Shown here: positions 5,448 through 21,096 of the stretch, one piece after another
How the letters are laid out: each line of letters begins with the position of its first letter
How positions within the stretch are numbered: position 1 is the first letter of the stretch
IMG/VR virus record: IMGVR_UViG_3300025118_000191
Location: 1-21,096 of that record
Source of the DNA: a virus
Direction: 5' to 3' (one strand)
DNA: 21,096 nucleotides
Made by a program: the position numbers and the translations under genes
The notes under the pieces: model-generated
What the model was told of the DNA's origin: nothing
The model's database searches: none
Seen by the model: only the letters and a program-made list of their open reading frames with translations

Positions 5448-5495
5448 TTAGACCCTTACGAGGGAGGGATTTCTCCTATTCGATTTAGGGTCTAA
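5448..5495. repeat. Perfect 9-bp inverted repeat spanning the dnaB stop codon
   Basis: TTAGACCCT (5448-5456) and AGGGTCTAA (5487-5495) are perfect complements with about 30 bases between. The right arm contains the dnaB stop codon. A smaller purine/pyrimidine complementarity lies in the loop. No U-run follows, so it is not a textbook terminator. It could be an RNA stem controlling dnaB mRNA stability or transcript end. Confidence 0.5.
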
Positions 5496-6777
5496 ACATC
5501 GCTCGGTCAGTATCCCACTTGATAGGAAACTCACCCGTGGGTCCGAACCGTGTCTTGAGACAGAGAATCTCTGACTTCTCCTCGATCTTCTCATCCCCTT
5601 TCCACTTCTTCTGTATCTCTGGATAGAAACCGGGACGGTATATCATCATCACATTGTCCGCGTCCTGCTCTATCCCCCCTGATCCGCGTAAGTCCGCAAG
5701 CTGTGGTCGCTTATCGAACCTCGTCTCGACGGATCTGTTTAGCTGTGACATAACGATGACAGGTTCATCACAGTCCTTTGCCATAGCCTTCAACCCCTTG
5801 GATATGGAGTTGACCTGCTCGTTCTCAGAGCTACCCTCACCCTCCATCAACTGGAGGTAATCAAAGATCCACAACCCGATGTTCTCTTTCTTCATCAGGT
5901 TTTGCATCCTTGCCTTAGCGAGTGGTATCGTCATGCCAGAAGTATCGTCAATGAATAAAGGTAAATCTGACATATAGGGCAAGGCATCCTCATACATCTC
6001 CAACTCCCACGCCTCCAACTTCCCGGCCCTGAAGTCGGCTACTGATACACCGATCTCCATGCAGGTAAGGCGTTGCATCAACTGCTTACGGCTCATCTCC
6101 AGCGCAAAGAAACCGATGCCTGTCTTTTCTGCTATGGCTACGTTCCTTGCGATCTGCAAACACAGGGTGGTCTTGCCGATGGAGGGACGTGCGGCAATGA
6201 CAGTAAGCTCTGATCCGCACAGCCCGTTGATCTTGGAGTTGATATCATTGAAGCCAGTGTCCAGCCCTGCGTATCTCCTGCTACTTTCTCTTACCTCAAA
6301 GAGTTCTTTGTTCACCTCCTTCATTGTCTCTGATGAAGAGACAAACCCATCTGTTCTCATCGTGCTTGCGCGGATCTCCTTGATCTCCCCTTCAAGGGAG
6401 GCAAGTATATCCATCGCTGGCCTGTCAGCATCCACCCTCTTCATCAGCGTCTTGACCTGCTGTAACGCTGACGCCTCCTTCAACTTCGCCACGTAATCCG
6501 GTAACATGGCAGGGACAGTGGGCGAGTCGATGAGCGAGTATACGTATGGTGGGTCACCCGCTGGCATCTCTAAGTCGTTGTCCCTCAGGTAGTTAGTAAG
6601 AAGTGGTAGGTCTACCTGTCCCGCCTCACTCTCTGCTCGTATCGCTCCCATCGCAGAGTAGATTGTCCGGTGCCGCCCGTCAGTGAAGTCTCCCGGGTCC
6701 AGTTCGGCGAACACCTCATCGAACTTGTTATCCCATGACAGGATACAGCCGAGGAGTGACTTCTCTATTTCAATCAT
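5485..6777 (-). CDS. dnaB: Replicative DNA helicase, DnaB family
   Basis: 430 residues, typical length. The N-terminal domain opens with EKSLLGCILSW and has DFTDGRHRTIYSAM (about 30-43), as in DnaB. The RecA-like domain has Walker A ARPSIGKTT (K202), FFALEM (E227), Walker B LWIFDYLQL (D306), SQLNRSVE (344-351) and the DLRGSGGIEQDAD signature (362-374). RFGPTG near the C-terminus is the family's usual KxRxGPxG. It should form the hexameric 5'-3' fork helicase of phage replication. ATGA overlap with the preceding 91-residue gene suggests coupled synthesis; that neighbour is a reasonable place to look for a helicase loader. No primase or polymerase is in the window. Confidence 0.95.
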   Translation of the reverse strand: MIEIEKSLLGCILSWDNKFDEVFAELDPGDFTDGRHRTIYSAMGAIRAESEAGQVDLPLLTNYLRDNDLEMPAGDPPYVYSLIDSPTVPAMLPDYVAKLKEASALQQVKTLMKRVDADRPAMDILASLEGEIKEIRASTMRTDGFVSSSETMKEVNKELFEVRESSRRYAGLDTGFNDINSKINGLCGSELTVIAARPSIGKTTLCLQIARNVAIAEKTGIGFFALEMSRKQLMQRLTCMEIGVSVADFRAGKLEAWELEMYEDALPYMSDLPLFIDDTSGMTIPLAKARMQNLMKKENIGLWIFDYLQLMEGEGSSENEQVNSISKGLKAMAKDCDEPVIVMSQLNRSVETRFDKRPQLADLRGSGGIEQDADNVMMIYRPGFYPEIQKKWKGDEKIEEKSEILCLKTRFGPTGEFPIKWDTDRAMFRP

Positions 6778-8460: not shown

Positions 8461-8484
8461 TACTACCTCCTTGAAGTGTAGGTA

Positions 8485-8513
8485 AATATACTAATATCAT
8501 GTCCAGTTGTCAA
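8485..8513 (-). promoter_or_regulatory. Sigma70-type promoter for the leftward replication operon
   Basis: On the minus strand TTGACA (8513-8508), a 17-base spacer and TATATT (8490-8485), so a near-consensus promoter. Transcription should start near 8478, about 18 bases before the ATG at 8460. The stretch GTATATTTACCTAC over the -10 (8491-8478) is identical to that at the 14054-14082 promoter, which suggests a shared operator or extended element. Confidence 0.85.
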
Positions 8514-8526
8514 GGTAATGTAGTGC

Positions 8527-8563: not shown

Positions 8564-8761
8564 ATGATTACTTGTCATCTACTCCGCTATTTGAAAGAAG
8601 CTGGCATGAGCCAGCGTGAGTTTGCCAAACGCTCTGGGTTGAATACCAAGATGGTATCTCGTTTGTCGAGAAACCAGATGAGCATGATTAGTTTCCTCAA
8701 CATCGAGCGAGTTTGTAAGACGCTTACAAAACCTATTGAGGAGGTGTTCACCATTGACTGA
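8564..8761 (+). CDS. Cro/CI-type helix-turn-helix repressor
   Basis: 65 residues forming essentially one XRE-type HTH domain: MSQREFAKRSGLNTKMVSRLSR (about residues 15-36), where GMSQREFAKRSGLN is the classic helix 2-turn and NTKMVSRL the recognition helix. The C-terminal TKPIEEVFTID is typical of short XRE proteins. It is divergent from the leftward operon promoter, the classical place for a phage Cro/CI regulator. No SD exists before the ATG (bases are TTACCCTCC), and the -10 box ends 8 bases upstream, so the mRNA is probably leaderless. Palindromic element copy 6 lies inside its 3' coding end, and the next gene starts just before its stop. Confidence 0.85.
   Translation: MITCHLLRYLKEAGMSQREFAKRSGLNTKMVSRLSRNQMSMISFLNIERVCKTLTKPIEEVFTID
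8713..8729. promoter_or_regulatory. Palindromic start-associated element, copy 6
   Basis: TTGTAAGACGCTTACAA, a perfect palindrome outside the central base pairs. It lies within the repressor coding sequence, 24 bases before the TTG start at 8754. Confidence 0.85.
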
Positions 8762-9443
8762 CGCACCCGCCCTCCCGGGCGAAGTAACTGACGTGGGGTA
8801 TACACCAGCGCAGACACTGACATACGAGCAATGGGAGTTCGGGTTTGACTTCCTTCGCAGTGTGAATCGGTCAGTCATGTGGTACCTTGGTGATATGATT
8901 AACTACGGTGAAAAGAAATGGGGTGATAAATACACACAGGCAATGGACGCCTCCAACTATGACTATGATACTTGCTATCGTGCCGCATACGTTGCCTCTA
9001 AGTTCCCTCAAGACAGGCGTCGTGCCGACCTGAGTTGGAATCATCATCGTGCGTTGGTAGACCTCGGACCTGAGCGACAGGACGTGCTACTTGAACACGC
9101 CTCGGATGAAGGACTCTCTGTTCAAGGGCTGAAGGATCTCCGCAAGGACCTTGAGAAAAAGTTCAACGTCCCCGCAGAGATCTATCGCCTCGGAAATAAG
9201 ACACGTGCTAAGATTCGTCAGTTGTTTGACGATGGGGTTGAGGTTGGGGAGACTTCTCATTGGAATGAGGAGATCTCTGCGGTGCGTGGTACACGCTGGC
9301 TGAAAATGGAGGTGGCCGTGACATTAGTTGACGAGTTCGACGCGCCCGTGGGTACACCTGAGCTTTCCGAACGCCTCGGACGAATAGAAGAATCACCGCA
9401 AAAAGAACCAGTACCGGAATCACCACCACAACAAGAAGCATAA
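8754..9443 (+). CDS. ParB/HTH-like DNA-binding protein
   Basis: 229 residues from the TTG at 8754, which follows GAGGAGGTG (8738-8746) at 7-base spacing and overlaps the repressor stop; an earlier in-frame TTG (8736) falls inside the SD. Residues about 30-130 (NRSVMWYLGDMINYGEKKWG, YDYDTCYRAAYVASKFP, LSWNHHRALVDL, DEGLSVQGLKDLRKDL) resemble a plasmid/phage family of ParB-like HTH proteins with the recurrent pattern W-x-GD ... VAxxFP ... LSWxHH. The C-terminal tail is rich in Pro, Glu and Gln. Co-transcription with the repressor suggests a regulatory or partition-type role. It is one candidate to bind the dispersed palindrome. The gene converges on 9447-9737 with 3 bases between. Confidence 0.65.
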   Translation: MTDAPALPGEVTDVGYTPAQTLTYEQWEFGFDFLRSVNRSVMWYLGDMINYGEKKWGDKYTQAMDASNYDYDTCYRAAYVASKFPQDRRRADLSWNHHRALVDLGPERQDVLLEHASDEGLSVQGLKDLRKDLEKKFNVPAEIYRLGNKTRAKIRQLFDDGVEVGETSHWNEEISAVRGTRWLKMEVAVTLVDEFDAPVGTPELSERLGRIEESPQKEPVPESPPQQEA

Positions 9444-14032: not shown

Positions 14033-14053
14033 ATCTCTATTGCCTCGTAGGTA

Positions 14054-14082
14054 AATATACACACATCAACACCCTTTGTCAA
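14054..14082 (-). promoter_or_regulatory. Sigma70-type promoter within the leftward operon
   Basis: On the minus strand TTGACA (14082-14077), a 17-base spacer and TATATT (14059-14054), with transcription likely starting near 14047. GTATATTTACCTAC over the -10 (14060-14047) matches the 8485-8513 promoter exactly. A half copy of the palindrome (TGTAAGTGAC, about 14106-14097) lies upstream of the -35. This promoter can drive the membrane protein, MoxR and VWA genes independently of the promoter at 18114-18142. Confidence 0.85.
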
Positions 14083-14095
14083 GGACTTTCTTTTG

Positions 14096-16371: not shown

Positions 16372-16524
16372 TTCCTTCAGGATCTGAGCACGTACTACCT
16401 GCCGACAGCGACGGCGGTACTTATTCTTGATCCGCTTACGCTCGCCGGACTTCCACATATACCAGCGTTTCATCCGCGTGAGCGCGTCCATTTCGTCGCC
16501 GTCGATGAAAGGTATCTCGGTCAT
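16366..16524 (-). CDS. Small basic protein, 52 residues
   Basis: ATG at 16524 overlaps the upstream stop as ATGA. The product MTEIPFIDGDEMDALTRMKR continues with WYMWKSGERKRIKNKYRRRC, so it is strongly basic in its second half, which suggests nucleic-acid binding. The TAA stop lies inside palindromic element copy 14. Confidence 0.65.
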   Translation of the reverse strand: MTEIPFIDGDEMDALTRMKRWYMWKSGERKRIKNKYRRRCRQVVRAQILKEM

Positions 16525-16739
16525 GCCTCTTCCCTTATGTGCGAGATCGCCACTTCGATGTCGCCGTTAGGGGTGATCAGGAACTGTCGGAGGTGGTAGC
16601 GCGTCGCATCCTCCCACTCGTCGCCGAGGATGACGTACCACTTCTTCATCTTCTTGTATTCGTCTGGCGTGAGCTTGAACACCTCCACGATCAGGCCACT
16701 CCGCCAGATACACGCCAACACCATCTCTTCTTTCGTCAC
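16521..16739 (-). CDS. Small hypothetical protein
   Basis: 72 residues from a GTG at 16739 (MTKEEMVLACIWRSGLIVEV). AAGGAG precedes it and palindromic element copy 15 is 20 bases upstream; the open frame up to 16838 belongs to the neighbour's shadow. LTPDEYKKMKKWYVILGDEW resembles small phage proteins of mixed alpha/beta type. Function unknown. Confidence 0.65.
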   Translation of the reverse strand: MTKEEMVLACIWRSGLIVEVFKLTPDEYKKMKKWYVILGDEWEDATRYHLRQFLITPNGDIEVAISHIREEA

Positions 16740-16759
16740 GGCGTCACTCCTTCGGGTAT

Positions 16760-16776
16760 TTGTAAGCGGTTTACAA
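16760..16776. promoter_or_regulatory. Palindromic start-associated element, copy 15
   Basis: TTGTAAGCGGTTTACAA, 20 bases before the GTG at 16739. Its TAA is the stop codon of the 16771-16887 gene. Confidence 0.85.
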
Positions 16777-16887
16777 TTCGTACTGGATGATCTTGCTCCA
16801 CTTCTGGACAGCGACCGTATGGCTGTATAGCCAACCACATGCTGGCATCGGGTACAACTCGATCATTTTTGCTTTGATCTTTGTCAC
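16771..16887 (-). CDS. 38-residue small protein
   Basis: A GTG at 16887 follows GGAGG at 7-base spacing. The product is MTKIKAKMIELYPMPACGWL and then YSHTVAVQKWSKIIQYEL. It is bounded by elements 16 (upstream) and 15 (its stop codon lies inside). The strong SD and the cassette-like placement are the evidence. Function unknown. Confidence 0.6.
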   Translation of the reverse strand: MTKIKAKMIELYPMPACGWLYSHTVAVQKWSKIIQYEL

Positions 16888-16902
16888 CTTTGTGCCTCCG
16901 TT

Positions 16903-16919
16903 TTGTAAGCCGCTTACAT
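16903..16919. promoter_or_regulatory. Palindromic start-associated element, copy 16
   Basis: TTGTAAGCCGCTTACAT, 15 bases before the GTG at 16887. Confidence 0.9.
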
Positions 16920-16920
16920 T

Positions 16921-16947
16921 GCCCCGGCCTTGAGGTAGCGCCGGGGC
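16921..16947 (-). terminator. GC-rich hairpin after the 16959-17165 gene
   Basis: GCCCCGGC (16921-16928) pairs with GCCGGGGC (16940-16947), 8 perfect GC pairs with an 11-base loop. It lies between a gene stop and palindromic element copy 16. There is no T-run, so it is at best a weak or factor-dependent terminator, or an mRNA end stabiliser. Confidence 0.45.
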
Positions 16948-16958
16948 GTGAGTCCTAC

Positions 16959-17165
16959 CTACTCACCAAAGAGGACGTAACGAGCCAGATCAAGTGCCTC
17001 CGCCGAGGTGAGGCGGAACGTGTAACGGTGGCCGGTCGAGGCGTCGATGTCGATTTCAAATTCTTGATCGGCGCGCGGTCGAACGATGTAAAACTTCCCA
17101 TCTTCTTTGTGCGCGATACACGCGGCGTTTTTCCGGTTCGGACTGTGTCGGATAATGCTTGCCAT
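16959..17165 (-). CDS. Small hypothetical protein
   Basis: 68 residues from the ATG at 17165, after AAGGAAGG. KEDGKFYIVRPRADQEFEID is beta-rich, and SAEALDLARYVLFGE is a C-terminal helix. A competing frame on the same strand (to 17218) has unnatural Ser/Arg-rich composition and is rejected. Its leader contains a strong hairpin (17184-17198). Confidence 0.65.
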   Translation of the reverse strand: MASIIRHSPNRKNAACIAHKEDGKFYIVRPRADQEFEIDIDASTGHRYTFRLTSAEALDLARYVLFGE

Positions 17166-17183
17166 TTTCTGACCTTCCTTTTG

Positions 17184-17198
17184 CTCCCCTTTGGGGAG
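17184..17198 (-). other. Leader hairpin before the 17165 start
   Basis: CTCCCC-TTT-GGGGAG, a perfect 6-bp GC-rich stem with a 3-base loop, sits between palindromic element copy 17 and the SD. It spaces this element unusually far (38 bases) from its start codon. Confidence 0.5.
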
Positions 17199-17203
17199 TC
17201 GTT

Positions 17204-17220
17204 TTGTAAGCCGCTCACAT
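17204..17220. promoter_or_regulatory. Palindromic start-associated element, copy 17
   Basis: TTGTAAGCCGCTCACAT, with one arm change, 38 bases before the ATG at 17165. Confidence 0.8.
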
Positions 17221-17258
17221 TTTTGTCAGGAGTTAGGACCTGATCTTACCGGCTTTCA

Positions 17259-17283
17259 GGCGGGGCCAGTGGCGCGCCCCGCC
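17259..17283 (-). terminator. GC-rich hairpin after the 17298-18098 gene
   Basis: GGCGGGGC (17259-17266) pairs with GCCCCGCC (17276-17283), 8 perfect GC pairs with a 9-base loop, 14 bases past the stop of the first gene of the operon. No T-run follows. It may attenuate read-through into the small genes. Confidence 0.45.
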
Positions 17284-17297
17284 CCCTCCAGCCTATC

Positions 17298-18098
17298 CTA
17301 CTTTCCAGCCTCTGCCGCCTCCTGAGCCGCCCACTGCTCGGCCTCAGGGATGACCGTATTCTTGAGATACTTGCTCAGGACCGCCTCGTTTTGCGCGACC
17401 TTGCCAGTCCGAGCCGTGTACAGCTCGCCAAGTGCCTTGAACGCTTCGCTGTGCGGAGTAGGCTCCCCGGTGTCTTTCTTTGCGTCTTTGCCGCAACCCG
17501 GACCGCGCTTCTCGACGATCTGAGTAGCCGACAGATTCTTGTTTGCAGGGTCCTTCGCAAACTTGCCTAACTCCTCAAGGTCCCGGTCTGCATAGACTCC
17601 GCCGGCCTTGCCAATAGCTACCACAATCTCGTTTTTCATGGTACGGGTTAGCTTGTTTTCTTTGGCCCCAGCTATGAACCGGAGGGACTTGACAGATCCA
17701 CAGTTACCAAAAGCCTCGATGCTGGCAGGGTCGATCATTTCCCCGATCTTGAACCAGTGAATCACGGACCGCCCTTCAACCTCCCGGCCTTGGTTCATAG
17801 GCGCGATTCTCTTCCCAATCTCGGTCTGAAACTCCTTCAGTCCCTCGGTCCCGAAAGATTTCCGAAAGTGGGACTCGGTCTTGAACACCAGCCCGCAAAG
17901 ATCATACAGCCCCTTGTTGGTGTTTTTGATCATCACCGCCACTTTGGAGGCGAAATCATTAAGCGGCTCACTGTGCTTCAACCAGAGTTTACGCATTACT
18001 CTAACCTTTGTTTGAAACCGGTTTCCGGTTTCGGTTTCAGCCGCTTCCGTTAGAGGGACAGTTTCCCTCCGCTTGTGCGGCTGTGGTGCGTGGTGCAT
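17298..18098 (-). CDS. First gene of leftward early operon, unknown function
   Basis: Up to 266 residues from the ATG at 18098; an internal ATG at 17996 (MRKLWLKHSEPLNDF) is also possible, giving 232 residues and a leader of about 110 bases with repeats and a hairpin. I see no catalytic motif. The protein is helical and basic, with FASKVAVMIKNTNKGLYDLC, FKTESHFRKSF, MKNEIVVAIGKAGG and a C-terminal Ala/Glu-rich helix. The position next to the repeat-rich 18.2-19.1 kb region, as first gene after a strong promoter, suits an initiator, an early regulator or a host-takeover protein. I cannot choose between these. Confidence 0.65.
   Translation of the reverse strand: MHHAPQPHKRRETVPLTEAAETETGNRFQTKVRVMRKLWLKHSEPLNDFASKVAVMIKNTNKGLYDLCGLVFKTESHFRKSFGTEGLKEFQTEIGKRIAPMNQGREVEGRSVIHWFKIGEMIDPASIEAFGNCGSVKSLRFIAGAKENKLTRTMKNEIVVAIGKAGGVYADRDLEELGKFAKDPANKNLSATQIVEKRGPGCGKDAKKDTGEPTPHSEAFKALGELYTARTGKVAQNEAVLSKYLKNTVIPEAEQWAAQEAAEAGK
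18014..18062. repeat. Palindrome and repeats at the start of the first early gene
   Basis: GAAACCGGTTTC (18014-18025) is a perfect 12-bp palindrome followed by further CGGTTTC and GGTTTC copies. GAGGGA and TCCCTC flank a 5-base loop just beyond. They lie in the first codons of the long form of the 17298-18098 gene, or in its leader if the ATG at 17996 is used. Confidence 0.45.
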
Positions 18099-18113
18099 GT
18101 TGAACGTGGACTG

Positions 18114-18142
18114 AATATAAACACGTTTTTGTTATTTGTCAA
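18114..18142 (-). promoter_or_regulatory. Sigma70-type promoter of the leftward early operon
   Basis: On the minus strand TTGACA (18142-18137), a 17-base spacer and TATATT (18119-18114). The spacer is A-rich. Start is expected near 18107, giving only about 9 bases before the ATG at 18098 and no SD there, which favours either a near-leaderless start or the internal ATG at 17996. Palindromic element copy 18 lies 19 bases upstream of the -35. Confidence 0.85.
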
Positions 18143-18160
18143 GAGTTATTTTCGGCACCC

Positions 18161-18177
18161 CTGAAAGCCGCTTACAT
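18161..18177. promoter_or_regulatory. Palindromic start-associated element, copy 18
   Basis: CTGAAAGCCGCTTACAT, the most degenerate copy. It is the only one sited upstream of a promoter rather than before an SD. Confidence 0.7.
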
Positions 18178-18236
18178 TTTCGTTTCTGTCCCTGCAACGT
18201 GGGTAAAGCTAAACACAAACCAAAATCTCCGCAAGC

Positions 18237-18629
18237 TGTACAAATGTGCACCTACTTCCGGGGCACCACCAACCACAGCCACCACTACTGCACAAATGTG
18301 CACCTAAATACGCCTCCTCGACCGTCTGGAGGCAGGAGAAACACCTGCACAAATGTTCACCCAAAAACAGATAAAACAGACCACAAATAGACAAGGAAAC
18401 TACTGCACAAATGTGCAGGTAAATGGCACAAATGTGCACCTAAAAAAGCACCCAAAAAAGTGACGTAACTTCAATAAAAACAACGACAGGTGCACATATG
18501 TTCATAGGCCCCAGAGGCTCTCAGAAGCCGCCTGACGCGTTTGGGCATCTACAGGAGTCCTCACCCCGGGGTGCCTCAGCAAGTCCAAGAGGCGGGTTTC
18601 GGAACATTTTTCCCGTGCACACTTGTGCA
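18237..18629. repeat. Palindromic repeat array, consensus TGCACAAATGTGCACCTA
   Basis: Copies at 18237-18250, 18289-18302, 18346-18359, 18404-18417, 18425-18438, 18491-18504 (centre AT) and 18616-18629 (centre CT). A degenerate one is at 18841-18854. Each is a TGCACA-nn-TGTGCA dyad; several are followed by CCTA, and copy six has the inverse TAGG context. Spacings run 52, 57, 58, 21, 66 and 125 bases, irregular but several near multiples of the helical turn. A/T-rich DNA lies between copies three and six. The arrangement suits an iteron origin or a multi-operator array. Confidence 0.75.
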
Positions 18630-18659
18630 CTATAACCCAAGGGGTATGTATTACCACAT

Positions 18660-18895
18660 GATACTACGCTTCGGCCATCTGTCCGATGCCTGTTTTTGCC
18701 CCCTGAATCGGCCGATAGCCCCCCCACTTTTGGCCCGCCTCAGGGAGGAACCAACGTCGGTATCACTTAGTATCAGATACTGAGGCCAGCATACTACGTA
18801 GTATCAAGCGCCCACTGTGCCGGGGAGCAGGGGATTTACCTGCTCAAATGTATAGTAACGATAATGCCCCTTATGAATACTATACTAAGTAGTAT
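18660..18895. repeat. Second dyad family, ATACTAmGTAGTAT
   Basis: ATACTACGTAGTAT (18791-18804) is a perfect 14-bp palindrome. ATACTAAGTAGTAT (18882-18895) has the same arms. Both are followed by CAAGC. AGTATC-A-GATACT (18769-18781) is a variant dyad, and GATACTACGC (18660-18669) a half site. They lie between the iteron-like array and the rightward promoter. Confidence 0.65.
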
Positions 18896-19016
18896 CAAGC
18901 TCCCCCAGAGACCCTCAGATCATATCCAAAGCACCCCAGAGCGGGAGGCAACCCCCGCAATAGGGGTCCCATCATTATTATGGATGGCCCCCCTAAAATT
19001 TAGAGTAAAAAATGGG

Positions 19017-19045
19017 TTGACCTACACATGAAATACACATAGATT
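19017..19045 (+). promoter_or_regulatory. Candidate rightward promoter
   Basis: TTGACC (19017-19022), a 17-base spacer and TAGATT (19040-19045), one or two bases off consensus in each box. It points at the terminase-containing operon, starting near 19052. A TGTGCAGGTGCACA dyad (19071-19084) lies just downstream and resembles the arms of the 18.2-18.6 kb array. Confidence 0.6.
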
Positions 19046-19145
19046 GGGTTTTTCGGGTTGTTACGTAGACTGTGCAGGTGCACAACGATAGTGGGCGCAT
19101 AGCGGCCGGGAGGAAGAGGATGTTTAAGATTACGACGATCTTTAC

Positions 19146-19382
19146 TTGGAGTATGTGGAGGGGTTCTGCGTTGAGGACGGAGATCTGATTGTTATAGCTG
19201 GGGATAGGCAGTATCGAGCTTTTGGGGACCCTTACGAGATCATCGAAAATTACTTGGAACAGGAGAAGAAGGAACGTGCAGAGTGGGACAAAAGGATCTT
19301 CGAGAAGGCTACACCTACAGGTGGACACAGACGTGTGGGAGAAGATTCACTCGATGAAGGGGACGCAGAGACATATAGTTGA
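19146..19382 (+). CDS. Small acidic protein at head of the rightward operon, start unclear
   Basis: Up to 78 residues from a TTG at 19146, without an SD. The convincing protein sequence (DYDDLYLEYVEGFCVEDGDL and on) is open from just after a TAA at about 19125. The best ribosome binding site (GGGAGGAAGAGG) precedes an ATG at 19120 whose frame is off by one and stops near 19188. A one-base change after ATGTTTAA would join them. So the gene is probably 19120-19382 with a frameshift or sequence error, or starts weakly at 19146. Function unknown. Confidence 0.45.
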   Translation: MEYVEGFCVEDGDLIVIAGDRQYRAFGDPYEIIENYLEQEKKERAEWDKRIFEKATPTGGHRRVGEDSLDEGDAETYS

Positions 19383-19470
19383 GGAGGCGGTGAGGGCGTA
19401 CAAGGAGGTAGATCTGCTAACCTTAGAGGAAAGACTGCGGAGGCTAGAGAACAGCATGGGCGAACGATGA
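19276..19470 (+). CDS. Probable ribbon-helix-helix-like protein
   Basis: 64 residues from a GTG at 19276, after GGAGAAGAAGGA. RRLHLQVDTDVWEKIHSMKG followed by TQRHIVEEAVRAYKE has the strand-helix-helix layout of CopG/MetJ-type regulators. The remaining LTLEERLRRLENSM is a coiled-coil-like tail. It overlaps the preceding gene by 107 bases and ends ATGA with the next gene. It is a candidate binder of the dyads just upstream. Confidence 0.6.
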   Translation: MQSGTKGSSRRLHLQVDTDVWEKIHSMKGTQRHIVEEAVRAYKEVDLLTLEERLRRLENSMGER

Positions 19471-19610
19471 GGGGGGCACGGGCCAAGGAGTTGAGGAAGC
19501 TGGCGGTAGAGCTTCATAGGGTTATGCCGGATACGCAGAAGAACCTGTATCGTCTTTTGAAAGCCGCTTACAAACAGGCGAGGAGAGACGGTAAGGAGTG
19601 GAGGAGATGA
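19467..19610 (+). CDS. 47-residue basic protein
   Basis: Starts with ATG in the ATGA overlap at 19467 and ends in another ATGA at 19607. MRGARAKELRKLAVELHRVM begins a basic, helical peptide ending RRDGKEWRR. Codons LKAAYKQ contain palindromic element copy 19. Overlaps at both ends support it. Function unknown. Confidence 0.6.
   Translation: MRGARAKELRKLAVELHRVMPDTQKNLYRLLKAAYKQARRDGKEWRR
19557..19573. promoter_or_regulatory. Palindromic start-associated element, copy 19
   Basis: TTGAAAGCCGCTTACAA, inside the 19467-19610 gene, 33 bases before the ATG at 19607. It shares the GAAAG arm variant with copies 11 and 18. Confidence 0.8.
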
Positions 19611-19951
19611 GACCCTCAAAGGAGATGTTGAAGCTTCCAGATTGTATAATTGTTAAGGTAAACGACGGGAAAGTAGAGTTTCATGGCTATCAGCAGGGAG
19701 AAGCAGGAGGTATTCCTGCACCACTTCGCGCAAACAATGAACGTGTCCCAGAGCGCAAGGAGAGCGGGGCTGAAGTCCCCTCGGGAGGTACAGAGGGAGA
19801 GGGAGTCGAATCCGAAGTTCGCAGAGGAGTGGGAGATGATCGAGGAGTCCAAACTCGATCAACTGGAAGCAGAACTGTGGAAGGACGCGCTGGAACACAA
19901 GGAAGACAGACGATGGGTTCTTTCAAAGCTCAGAAAGAGGTGGGCAGATAA
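19607..19951 (+). CDS. Uncertain ORF overlapping terminase small subunit
   Basis: The ATG is in an ATGA overlap with the preceding stop and follows GGAGGA. The first about 28 residues (MRPSKEMLKLPDCIIVKVND, then GKVEFHGY) look like genuine protein. After 19683 the frame runs through the terminase small gene and becomes Gly/Arg/Glu-rich shadow sequence. Either a short gene has lost its stop, or a long overlap is real. Confidence 0.35.
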   Translation: MRPSKEMLKLPDCIIVKVNDGKVEFHGYQQGEAGGIPAPLRANNERVPERKESGAEVPSGGTEGEGVESEVRRGVGDDRGVQTRSTGSRTVEGRAGTQGRQTMGSFKAQKEVGR

Positions 19952-20186
19952 AAAGAAGGTGGAGGGAGTAATAAACCACAATGTCGATATCAAAAGCCTC
20001 TCAAAGGCAGACCTCCTTAAAATCGTCGGGAGACCTGTCGAAGCAGAGTTTACTGCGGTCCGTGAAGACAACCCGCGAACTCACTTGGGCACACGCCGTC
20101 CAAACGACGGCGGAACAGATGGAACAGATTCCACCGCAAAAGAAAAGATTGGACCTGACGGCGACACAGGAACTGAGGTTGATTGA
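19683..20186 (+). CDS. Terminase small subunit
   Basis: 167 residues. MAISREKQEVFLHHFAQTMN then VSQSARRAGLKSPREVQRER is the HTH typical of small terminases (FLxxxAxxxNVSxSARxAGxS), the DNA-recognition domain. FAEEWEMIEESKLDQLEAEL follows, also typical, and NVDIKSLSKADLLKIVG resembles the later helical part. Small subunits bind pac/cos sites and pass DNA to the large subunit, encoded 350 bases downstream. The SD is weak (GTAGAG, 4 bases away). The C-terminus is rich in Gly, Asp and Thr. Confidence 0.8.
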   Translation: MAISREKQEVFLHHFAQTMNVSQSARRAGLKSPREVQRERESNPKFAEEWEMIEESKLDQLEAELWKDALEHKEDRRWVLSKLRKRWADKKKVEGVINHNVDIKSLSKADLLKIVGRPVEAEFTAVREDNPRTHLGTRRPNDGGTDGTDSTAKEKIGPDGDTGTEVD

Positions 20187-20376
20187 CGCCATCTGGGAAG
20201 AGCAACAGAAGAAGATCGCGCAGTTAATAGCAACTGAGACCCCCACATCCCAGTGGGAACCCTACCTACTTTCAGTAGAAGAGGACGTAGAAGGGGAAAT
20301 GAGGGAAACATTCGATGATGAGGCGCACGTTGAGATACTTGCTGCCATTGCAGGAAAGCGAACCACGGGGCTTTAA
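20119..20376 (+). CDS. Small acidic helical protein between terminase genes
   Basis: 85 residues from the ATG at 20119 (MEQIPPQKKRLDLTATQELR). A TTG at 20179, overlapping the terminase small stop as TTGATTGA, is an alternative start. The frame further upstream is shadow of the terminase. LIDAIWEEQQKKIAQLIATE is helical, and the C-terminal half acidic. Function unknown; possibly accessory to packaging by position. Confidence 0.55.
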   Translation: MEQIPPQKKRLDLTATQELRLIDAIWEEQQKKIAQLIATETPTSQWEPYLLSVEEDVEGEMRETFDDEAHVEILAAIAGKRTTGL

Positions 20377-20620
20377 GCGTAAGTTCCACAGGAATGCAGA
20401 GAACAAATACGCCAAATTGCACCATGATTTGACCGGAAGATGCCTCAACGGGGGGGATAAGAGGTGTCAGGGGACTGTATTTTCAGGTATAGACACCTGC
20501 ATATATTGTTACGCAAAGGATAGAGTGAAGGAACATGGAAGAAAACTCTGGAGAGTCGGGAGCAAACGACCACCAAAAGGAAGCCGCAGAAGAGTTATTA
20601 AAGAGAACAGAGGCCCATGA
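20315..20620 (+). CDS. Small basic Cys-rich protein before terminase large subunit
   Basis: 101 residues from ATGATG at 20315, with AGGGA upstream. GRCLNGGDKRC (two Cys), then DTCIYCYAKDRVKEHGRK (CxxC) suggests a zinc-binding or HNH-like knuckle; HH in KLHHDL precedes it. Many phages carry an HNH protein beside the terminase that assists packaging, but no full HNH motif is visible. It overlaps both neighbours, by 62 and 86 bases. Confidence 0.55.
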   Translation: MMRRTLRYLLPLQESEPRGFKRKFHRNAENKYAKLHHDLTGRCLNGGDKRCQGTVFSGIDTCIYCYAKDRVKEHGRKLWRVGSKRPPKGSRRRVIKENRGP

Positions 20621-21096
20621 CAGGCTGATTCCTTTCGTAGAGTACACCCTTCCTGCGTATGAAGCGGGAACGCATCACCGTTACATAGCTGAAAAGCTCG
20701 AAGCCGTTGCGAAGGGGGAGTTGAAGCGCCTGATCATACAGGCACCTCCCCGGCACGGGAAATCCCAACTTGGGACAATCCACTTCCCTGCGTGGTATCT
20801 CGGCCACAATCCTGCACAGCAGATTATCACAGCATCCCATAACACAGATCTAGCAAGAGCGTTTGGTAGACAGGTGAGGAACCTGTGTGCCAATCCCTTG
20901 TACCAGAATGTCTTTGAGGATATCGAGCTTGCCGCAGACGCAAAGGCGGCGAACTACTGGCACACCTCGATGGGTGGGGCTTATCTCTCAGTGGGTGTGG
21001 GAGGGTCTCCTACGGGGCGTGGTGGCCATCTGATTGTAATTGATGACCCGATCCGTGGTCAGCAGGACGCAGACTCCAAGTCAGTCAGAGAGGCAA
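20535..21096 (+). CDS. Terminase large subunit, 3' partial
   Basis: 187 residues are visible and the frame is open at the window end. APPRHGKS (70-77, K76) is the classic P-loop of phage packaging ATPases, and HLIVIDDP (165-172, D170/D171) is Walker B. SVGVGGSPTGRGGHL just before is the typical segment preceding Walker B (GxxxxxTGRGxxL). The protein powers DNA translocation into the prohead; the nuclease domain lies beyond the window. AAGGA precedes the ATG at 20535. Confidence 0.95.
   Translation, partial: MEENSGESGANDHQKEAAEELLKRTEAHDRLIPFVEYTLPAYEAGTHHRYIAEKLEAVAKGELKRLIIQAPPRHGKSQLGTIHFPAWYLGHNPAQQIITASHNTDLARAFGRQVRNLCANPLYQNVFEDIELAADAKAANYWHTSMGGAYLSVGVGGSPTGRGGHLIVIDDPIRGQQDADSKSVREA

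Follow-up and report, generated by a model that had tools for sequence, protein, structure and literature searches.

Our analysis of a 21,096-base viral record, referred to below as the window, confirmed a real phage array of a kind that is already known, either regulatory or part of an origin, in which the 14-letter palindrome TGCAC-N4-GTGCA is present seven times within 393 bases (positions 18237 to 18629). We tentatively favor the interpretation that this array constitutes the protein-binding part of a phage replication origin region over the interpretation that it is an array of operators. This preference is based on the occurrence of the same dyad within replication-initiator genes of other viruses, on an A-rich stretch beside the dyads, on the presence of a DnaB-type helicase encoded by the phage itself, and on a minimum of the cumulative GC skew in the same intergenic gap. 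If the array is indeed an origin, it shows where replication begins in a group of uncultured phages, presumably marine to judge by their IMG sample numbers, and narrows the search for the initiator to a few candidates.

The existence of seven dyads, as first proposed from inspection of the sequence, is far above chance expectation. In the 1,023-base gap from 18099 to 19121, TGCAC-N4-GTGCA occurs seven times with at most one mismatch, compared with a mean of 0.04 and a maximum of 1 in 500 dinucleotide-preserving shuffles of that gap. The corresponding search with the 18-mer TGCACNNNTGTGCACCTA, allowing up to three mismatches, returned 9 matches, whereas shuffled sequences gave 0.38 on average and never more than 3, and no 14-mer family of equal size was found in the other 1-kb stretches tested across the window. 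The full 18-letter consensus that had been put forward fits only copy 2: the sequence following the dyad varies among copies (Table 1), being CCCA after copy 3, and one half-site is weakened (GTTCA) in copies 3 and 6. A related dyad had also been placed just past the rightward promoter. It is present there and is retained in relatives. The order of its half-sites is reversed, however (TGTGCA-GG-TGCACA versus TGCACA-N2-TGTGCA), making it a related but different dyad.

Table 1. Positions of the dyads and of neighboring or functionally associated features in the window.
Feature	Positions	Strand	Description
DnaB-type replicative helicase	5485..6777	-	Member of the leftward block
Cro/C1-type HTH protein (HTH_26)	8564..8761	+	Pfam match; alternative candidate binder
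First gene of leftward operon, 232 aa	17298..17996	-	No recognized family; weakened candidate binder
Leftward promoter candidate PL	18114..18142	-	TTGACA-17-TATATT, 11/12
Dyad 1	18237..18250	+	TGTACAAATGTGCA, then CCTA
Dyad 2	18289..18302	+	TGCACAAATGTGCA, then CCTA
Dyad 3	18346..18359	+	TGCACAAATGTTCA; relatives L011 and L012 have TACACAAATGTTCA
Dyad 4	18404..18417	+	TGCACAAATGTGCA, then GGTA
Dyad 5	18425..18438	+	GGCACAAATGTGCA, then CCTA
A-rich stretch, candidate unwinding region	18439..18487	+	From composition; putative function
Dyad 6	18491..18504	-	TGAACATATGTGCA on the minus strand, then CCTG
Dyad 7	18616..18629	-	TGCACAAGTGTGCA on the minus strand
Degenerate copy	18834..18857	-	Inverted repeat I1, 79% complementary to 24 bases around dyad 4
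Rightward promoter candidate PR	19017..19045	+	TTGACC-17-TAGATT, 9/12
Related dyad	19071..19084		TGTGCAGGTGCACA; leader of the rightward promoter; half-sites reversed in order

The array lies inside a noncoding gap of about 1 kb that separates an early operon read leftward from the terminase genes read rightward. This layout agrees with the original prediction, with the DnaB gene on the left and the genes for the small and large terminase subunits (TerS and TerL) on the right; the leftward block also encodes a MoxR-like ATPase and a VWA protein. The two candidate promoters, PL and PR, both matches to the promoter consensus, face outward on the two sides of the array. Two more leftward TTGACA-17-TATATT promoters are found inside a 38-base repeat (D9) at 8478 to 8515 and 14047 to 14084. 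Between the array and PR, from 18658 to 18904, there is a second, unrelated set of dyads, comprising ATACTANGTAGTAT and GATACTA/TAGTATC half-sites. Near 19134, the window lacks one base that its relatives L009, L011, and L012 have, and the reading frame of the first rightward gene is interrupted there; the missing base is either real or an assembly error.

The A-rich DNA that had been described as lying between the dyads is mainly confined to positions 18340 to 18490, where A reaches 60% and T falls to 5% on the plus strand, while positions 18500 to 18600 are GC-rich. The segment from 18440 to 18479 has 55% A and 15% T, and at 70% A+T it equals PL and PR in A/T content. The suggested GC-skew analysis placed the cumulative minimum within the gap, at 18993, but this minimum does not provide independent evidence, since the skew changes where the genes change direction. 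At 4-fold degenerate sites, the skew is negative over 10.9 to 18.0 kb and ranges from 0 to +0.13 in TerS and TerL. The window contains no Rfam match.

Support for an origin comes from the settings in which the same dyad is found in other viruses. A scan of viral contigs for two dyads no more than 35 bases apart returned eight stretches; L150 and L151 came from a further scan that required three dyads. In L029, L033, and L036, the repeats lie within a phage replication-initiator gene, with Phage_rep_O Pfam E values of 4.7e-23 for L029 and 2.1e-26 for L036. In L029, L036, and L032, the tandem repeats are 19 to 24 bases apart and are apparently iterons of the lambda type; in L036 they fall between the Phage_rep_O and DnaB_2 domains, and in L032 they lie within an HTH_36 gene. 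A relative of the L032 protein, from cyanophage KBS-S-2A, is encoded by a gene that contains another iteron, 24 bases long, which indicates that proteins of this type carry their own iterons. Three perfect copies of AGGTGCACATTTGTGCACCT occur in L034, 30 bases past a small uncharacterized gene whose product appears winged-helix-like by eye and has no significant Pfam hit, and the dyads of L151 adjoin an AAA_25 helicase gene. No replication gene was seen beside the array in the inspected parts of L030/L035, L031, and L150. The association with initiators comes from a small viral sample of about seven independent groups, with two firm and two suggestive cases.

Lambdoid origins, which lie inside gene O and are bound by the O protein, consist of iterons and an AT-rich tract (PMC7466680). 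The present array resembles this arrangement in that several dyad-type repeats, seven copies of one short repeat in 393 bases, precede an A/T-rich stretch, here a candidate unwinding tract, and the phage has a DnaB-type helicase, and in that the same TGCAC-N4-GTGCA sequence occurs in tandem within other viral Phage_rep_O genes. It differs in being noncoding and not within an initiator gene; the idea that the dyads are part of a protein-coding sequence, like the lambda iterons in O, was rejected because the spacings of 52 and 58 bases break the frame. In addition, the dyads lack the regular spacing of about two helical turns, the center-to-center distances from dyad 1 to dyad 7 being 52, 57, 58, 21, 66, and 125 bases and thus irregular and mostly 52 to 66. 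Furthermore, the scanned proteins of the window gave no Phage_rep_O or HTH_36 Pfam hit, and the helicase is encoded 11 kb away, with neither an initiator nor a loader recognized among the genes of the window.

The array could act much as the iterons and AT-rich tract do with lambda O. In this scenario, a dimer of a phage-encoded initiator would bind the TGCAC-N4-GTGCA dyads, the A-rich stretch beside the first five dyads would open, and the phage DnaB helicase would be loaded there, so that replication would start at this site. Since the array is flanked by PL and PR and a related dyad is found in the PR leader, this protein may in addition modulate transcription. The irregular spacing, the lack of a recognized initiator, the absence of a DnaA box (with up to one mismatch) between 18000 and 19200, the absence of the dyads from the gap of a distant relative, the small viral sample, and the mostly LacI-linked occurrence of the tandem dyad in bacteria argue against an origin. 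The original shortlist of origin or operator still holds; within it, the repeats in initiator genes strengthen the origin, and the uneven spacing and missing recognizable initiator weaken it. An origin whose dyads are irregular in spacing and far apart (about five helical turns), served by an initiator from an unrecognized family such as, possibly, the 232-amino-acid protein encoded next to the array, is a variant that we regard as unlikely; in that protein, the first two-thirds are exchanged between near-identical phages, while the C-terminal part, like the array, stays constant.

The second interpretation, which we consider possible though with less confidence than an origin, is that the dyads are operators for a dimeric repressor or activator of the phage or host, which would control the activity of PL and PR, perhaps through DNA looping. 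The protein may be the Cro/C1-like HTH protein, a MerR-like protein, or a host protein of the LacI or LexA type. A perfect or near-perfect dyad of 14 bases is a typical dimer operator, and the related dyad lies about 20 to 33 bases into the PR leader, as counted from the predicted start site. Dyads 1, 2, 4, 5, and 7 are near whole helical turns apart, a phasing that does not reach significance for all seven dyads (Rayleigh test by hand, P ~ 0.09). In bacterial genomes, moreover, tandem copies of the dyad are mostly found upstream of genes for LacI-type regulators or for sugar uptake (sugar-binding proteins), as in Nostoc, Armatimonadetes, Burkholderiales, and alphaproteobacteria, with other occurrences being plain tandem repeats; bacterial LacI-type regulators appear to use the same dyad. 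The operators of LacI-family regulators in Nostoc and others share with the phage array the 6-2-6 dyad TGCACA-NN-TGTGCA, present in at least two copies upstream of a gene. However, they usually comprise two copies, 23 to 45 bases apart, near a promoter or start codon, whereas the phage array has seven, all of them distant from PL and PR. Among the proteins scanned in this 21-kb fragment, no LacI Pfam hit was found.

A similar comparison can be made with LexA boxes of the NNAC-N4-GTNN class, which include CGAACN4GTTCG in Bacillus and AGTACWNWTGTACT in cyanobacteria (PMC3091678). The phage dyad has the same length and the same four-base center. The LexA site of Fibrobacter succinogenes has the form TGCNC-N4-GTGCA, which the phage dyad matches exactly. 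LexA boxes overlap promoters, though, and occur in one or two copies, whereas none of the dyads here overlaps the hexamers of PL or PR. This distance from the promoters weighs against operators in general: none of the seven dyads overlaps a promoter core, and they are situated about 95 to 490 bases upstream of PL and at least about 390 bases upstream of PR. The leftward TTGACA-17-TATATT promoters near 14082 and 8513 likewise have no dyad nearby. Finally, no integrase was found among the scanned early-block genes of G005, a distant 41-kb relative whose large terminase and DnaB are 69% and 47% identical to those of the window, respectively; its early block does contain a gene for a TnpB/OrfB-type transposase (G005:C1:25256-26860). 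Considering that the dyad recurs in unrelated settings, both as an apparent iteron and as an apparent operator of the LacI type, the motif alone cannot name its binder, a caution that applies to motif-only assignments of binding proteins. In the literature searched, no match to the exact motif was found.

Comparison with close relatives bears on the identity of the binding protein. The contigs with L009, L011, and L012 all carry the array, and the sole base change inside the dyads is in copy 3. Because the window and L012 share about 98% identity over the whole block from 18000 to 21096, on both sides of the array, this conservation is weak evidence of selection, and we did not retain it as proof. 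Within this otherwise about 98% identical pair, two segments have been exchanged, 16520 to 17200 and 17400 to 18000, covering small genes together with some two-thirds of the gene for the 232-amino-acid protein.

This gene, the neighbor of the array, was originally read as the frame from 17298 to 18098, and its product was the suggested partner for a gel shift with the dyads. The probable start is instead at 17996, where similarity to the relative begins (MRKLW/MKKLY). DNA identity between the window and L012 is only about 58 to 75% over most of 17400 to 18000 and 95 to 97% in the last third of the gene (17200 to 17400). With the bulk of the protein swapped and the array unchanged, its case as the binder is weakened. 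Neither Pfam nor a structure model of moderate quality (pLDDT 66) revealed a DNA-binding fold, a family, or a fold match for it. With no family and no fold match, and with the protein largely exchanged while the array stays, the 232-amino-acid protein was dropped as the obvious binder. Searches with this protein, and with DnaB in viral contigs, returned no further relatives that bear the array.

In addition to the Cro/C1-type protein and the 232-amino-acid protein, now a weaker candidate, the possible binders include two MerR-like proteins, the small terminase, the product of 8736 to 9440, which has a weak ParB-HTH match (E value of 0.024), and a frame at 19318 to 19467 that is ribbon-helix-helix-like by eye and has no Pfam hit. 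As the window is a viral record of 21,096 bases, the true partner may also be encoded outside it. Binding of the small terminase to dyads about 1 kb upstream of its own gene would make the array a pac or cosB-like packaging site, which we consider improbable. While the array does lie upstream of TerS and TerL, where pac and cos sites are often located, and stays linked to the terminase genes in L011 and L012, this linkage is uninformative in DNA that is near-identical, and the contig ends (15081, 16504, 18070, and 18886) do not cluster at the array. Short-dyad arrays also form plasmid centromeres. The least probable of the uses considered here is that the array is bound in a partition-like or nucleoid-type manner or has some other role, such as a centromere for a plasmid-like state. 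The weakly ParB-HTH-like product of 8736 to 9440 would suit such a role but fits the dispersed palindrome of this phage at least equally well, and the window genes that were checked included no ParA or ParM partner.

The dispersed palindrome, TGTAAGCSGCTTACA, occurs in 19 copies between 2252 and 19572, mostly at gene junctions, and is shaped like the plasmid KorB site, TTTAGCSGCTAAA. The earlier expectation of a second DNA-binding protein, distinct from the one acting on this palindrome, is likely correct: the palindrome and the dyad have no common arms, G005 has no copy of TGTAAGCSGCTTACA, and its gap has no dyads. G005 nevertheless encodes a protein that resembles the 8736 to 9440 product by eye.

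The corresponding gap of G005 (L014), which lacks the TGCAC-N4-GTGCA array, instead contains some six hairpins that share a conserved center of 8 bases, GNCYGWAR (L014:1711-2250). Their 6-base stems vary yet are self-complementary, which suggests a structured element. Their presence in this gap suggests that such an array may be conserved in position but not in sequence. Dyads of the GATACTA/TAGTATC type also precede rightward genes in this distant relative (L014:2950-2985 and L014:3163-3179). In another relative, L020, two TGCA-N5-TGCA dyads with AGGT flanks (CGTGCAATTCTTGCAGGTTAGGTGCATTTTTTGCAGGT) are located 20 bases apart at about 2100 to 2150, upstream of rightward genes, and are possibly the same kind of site.
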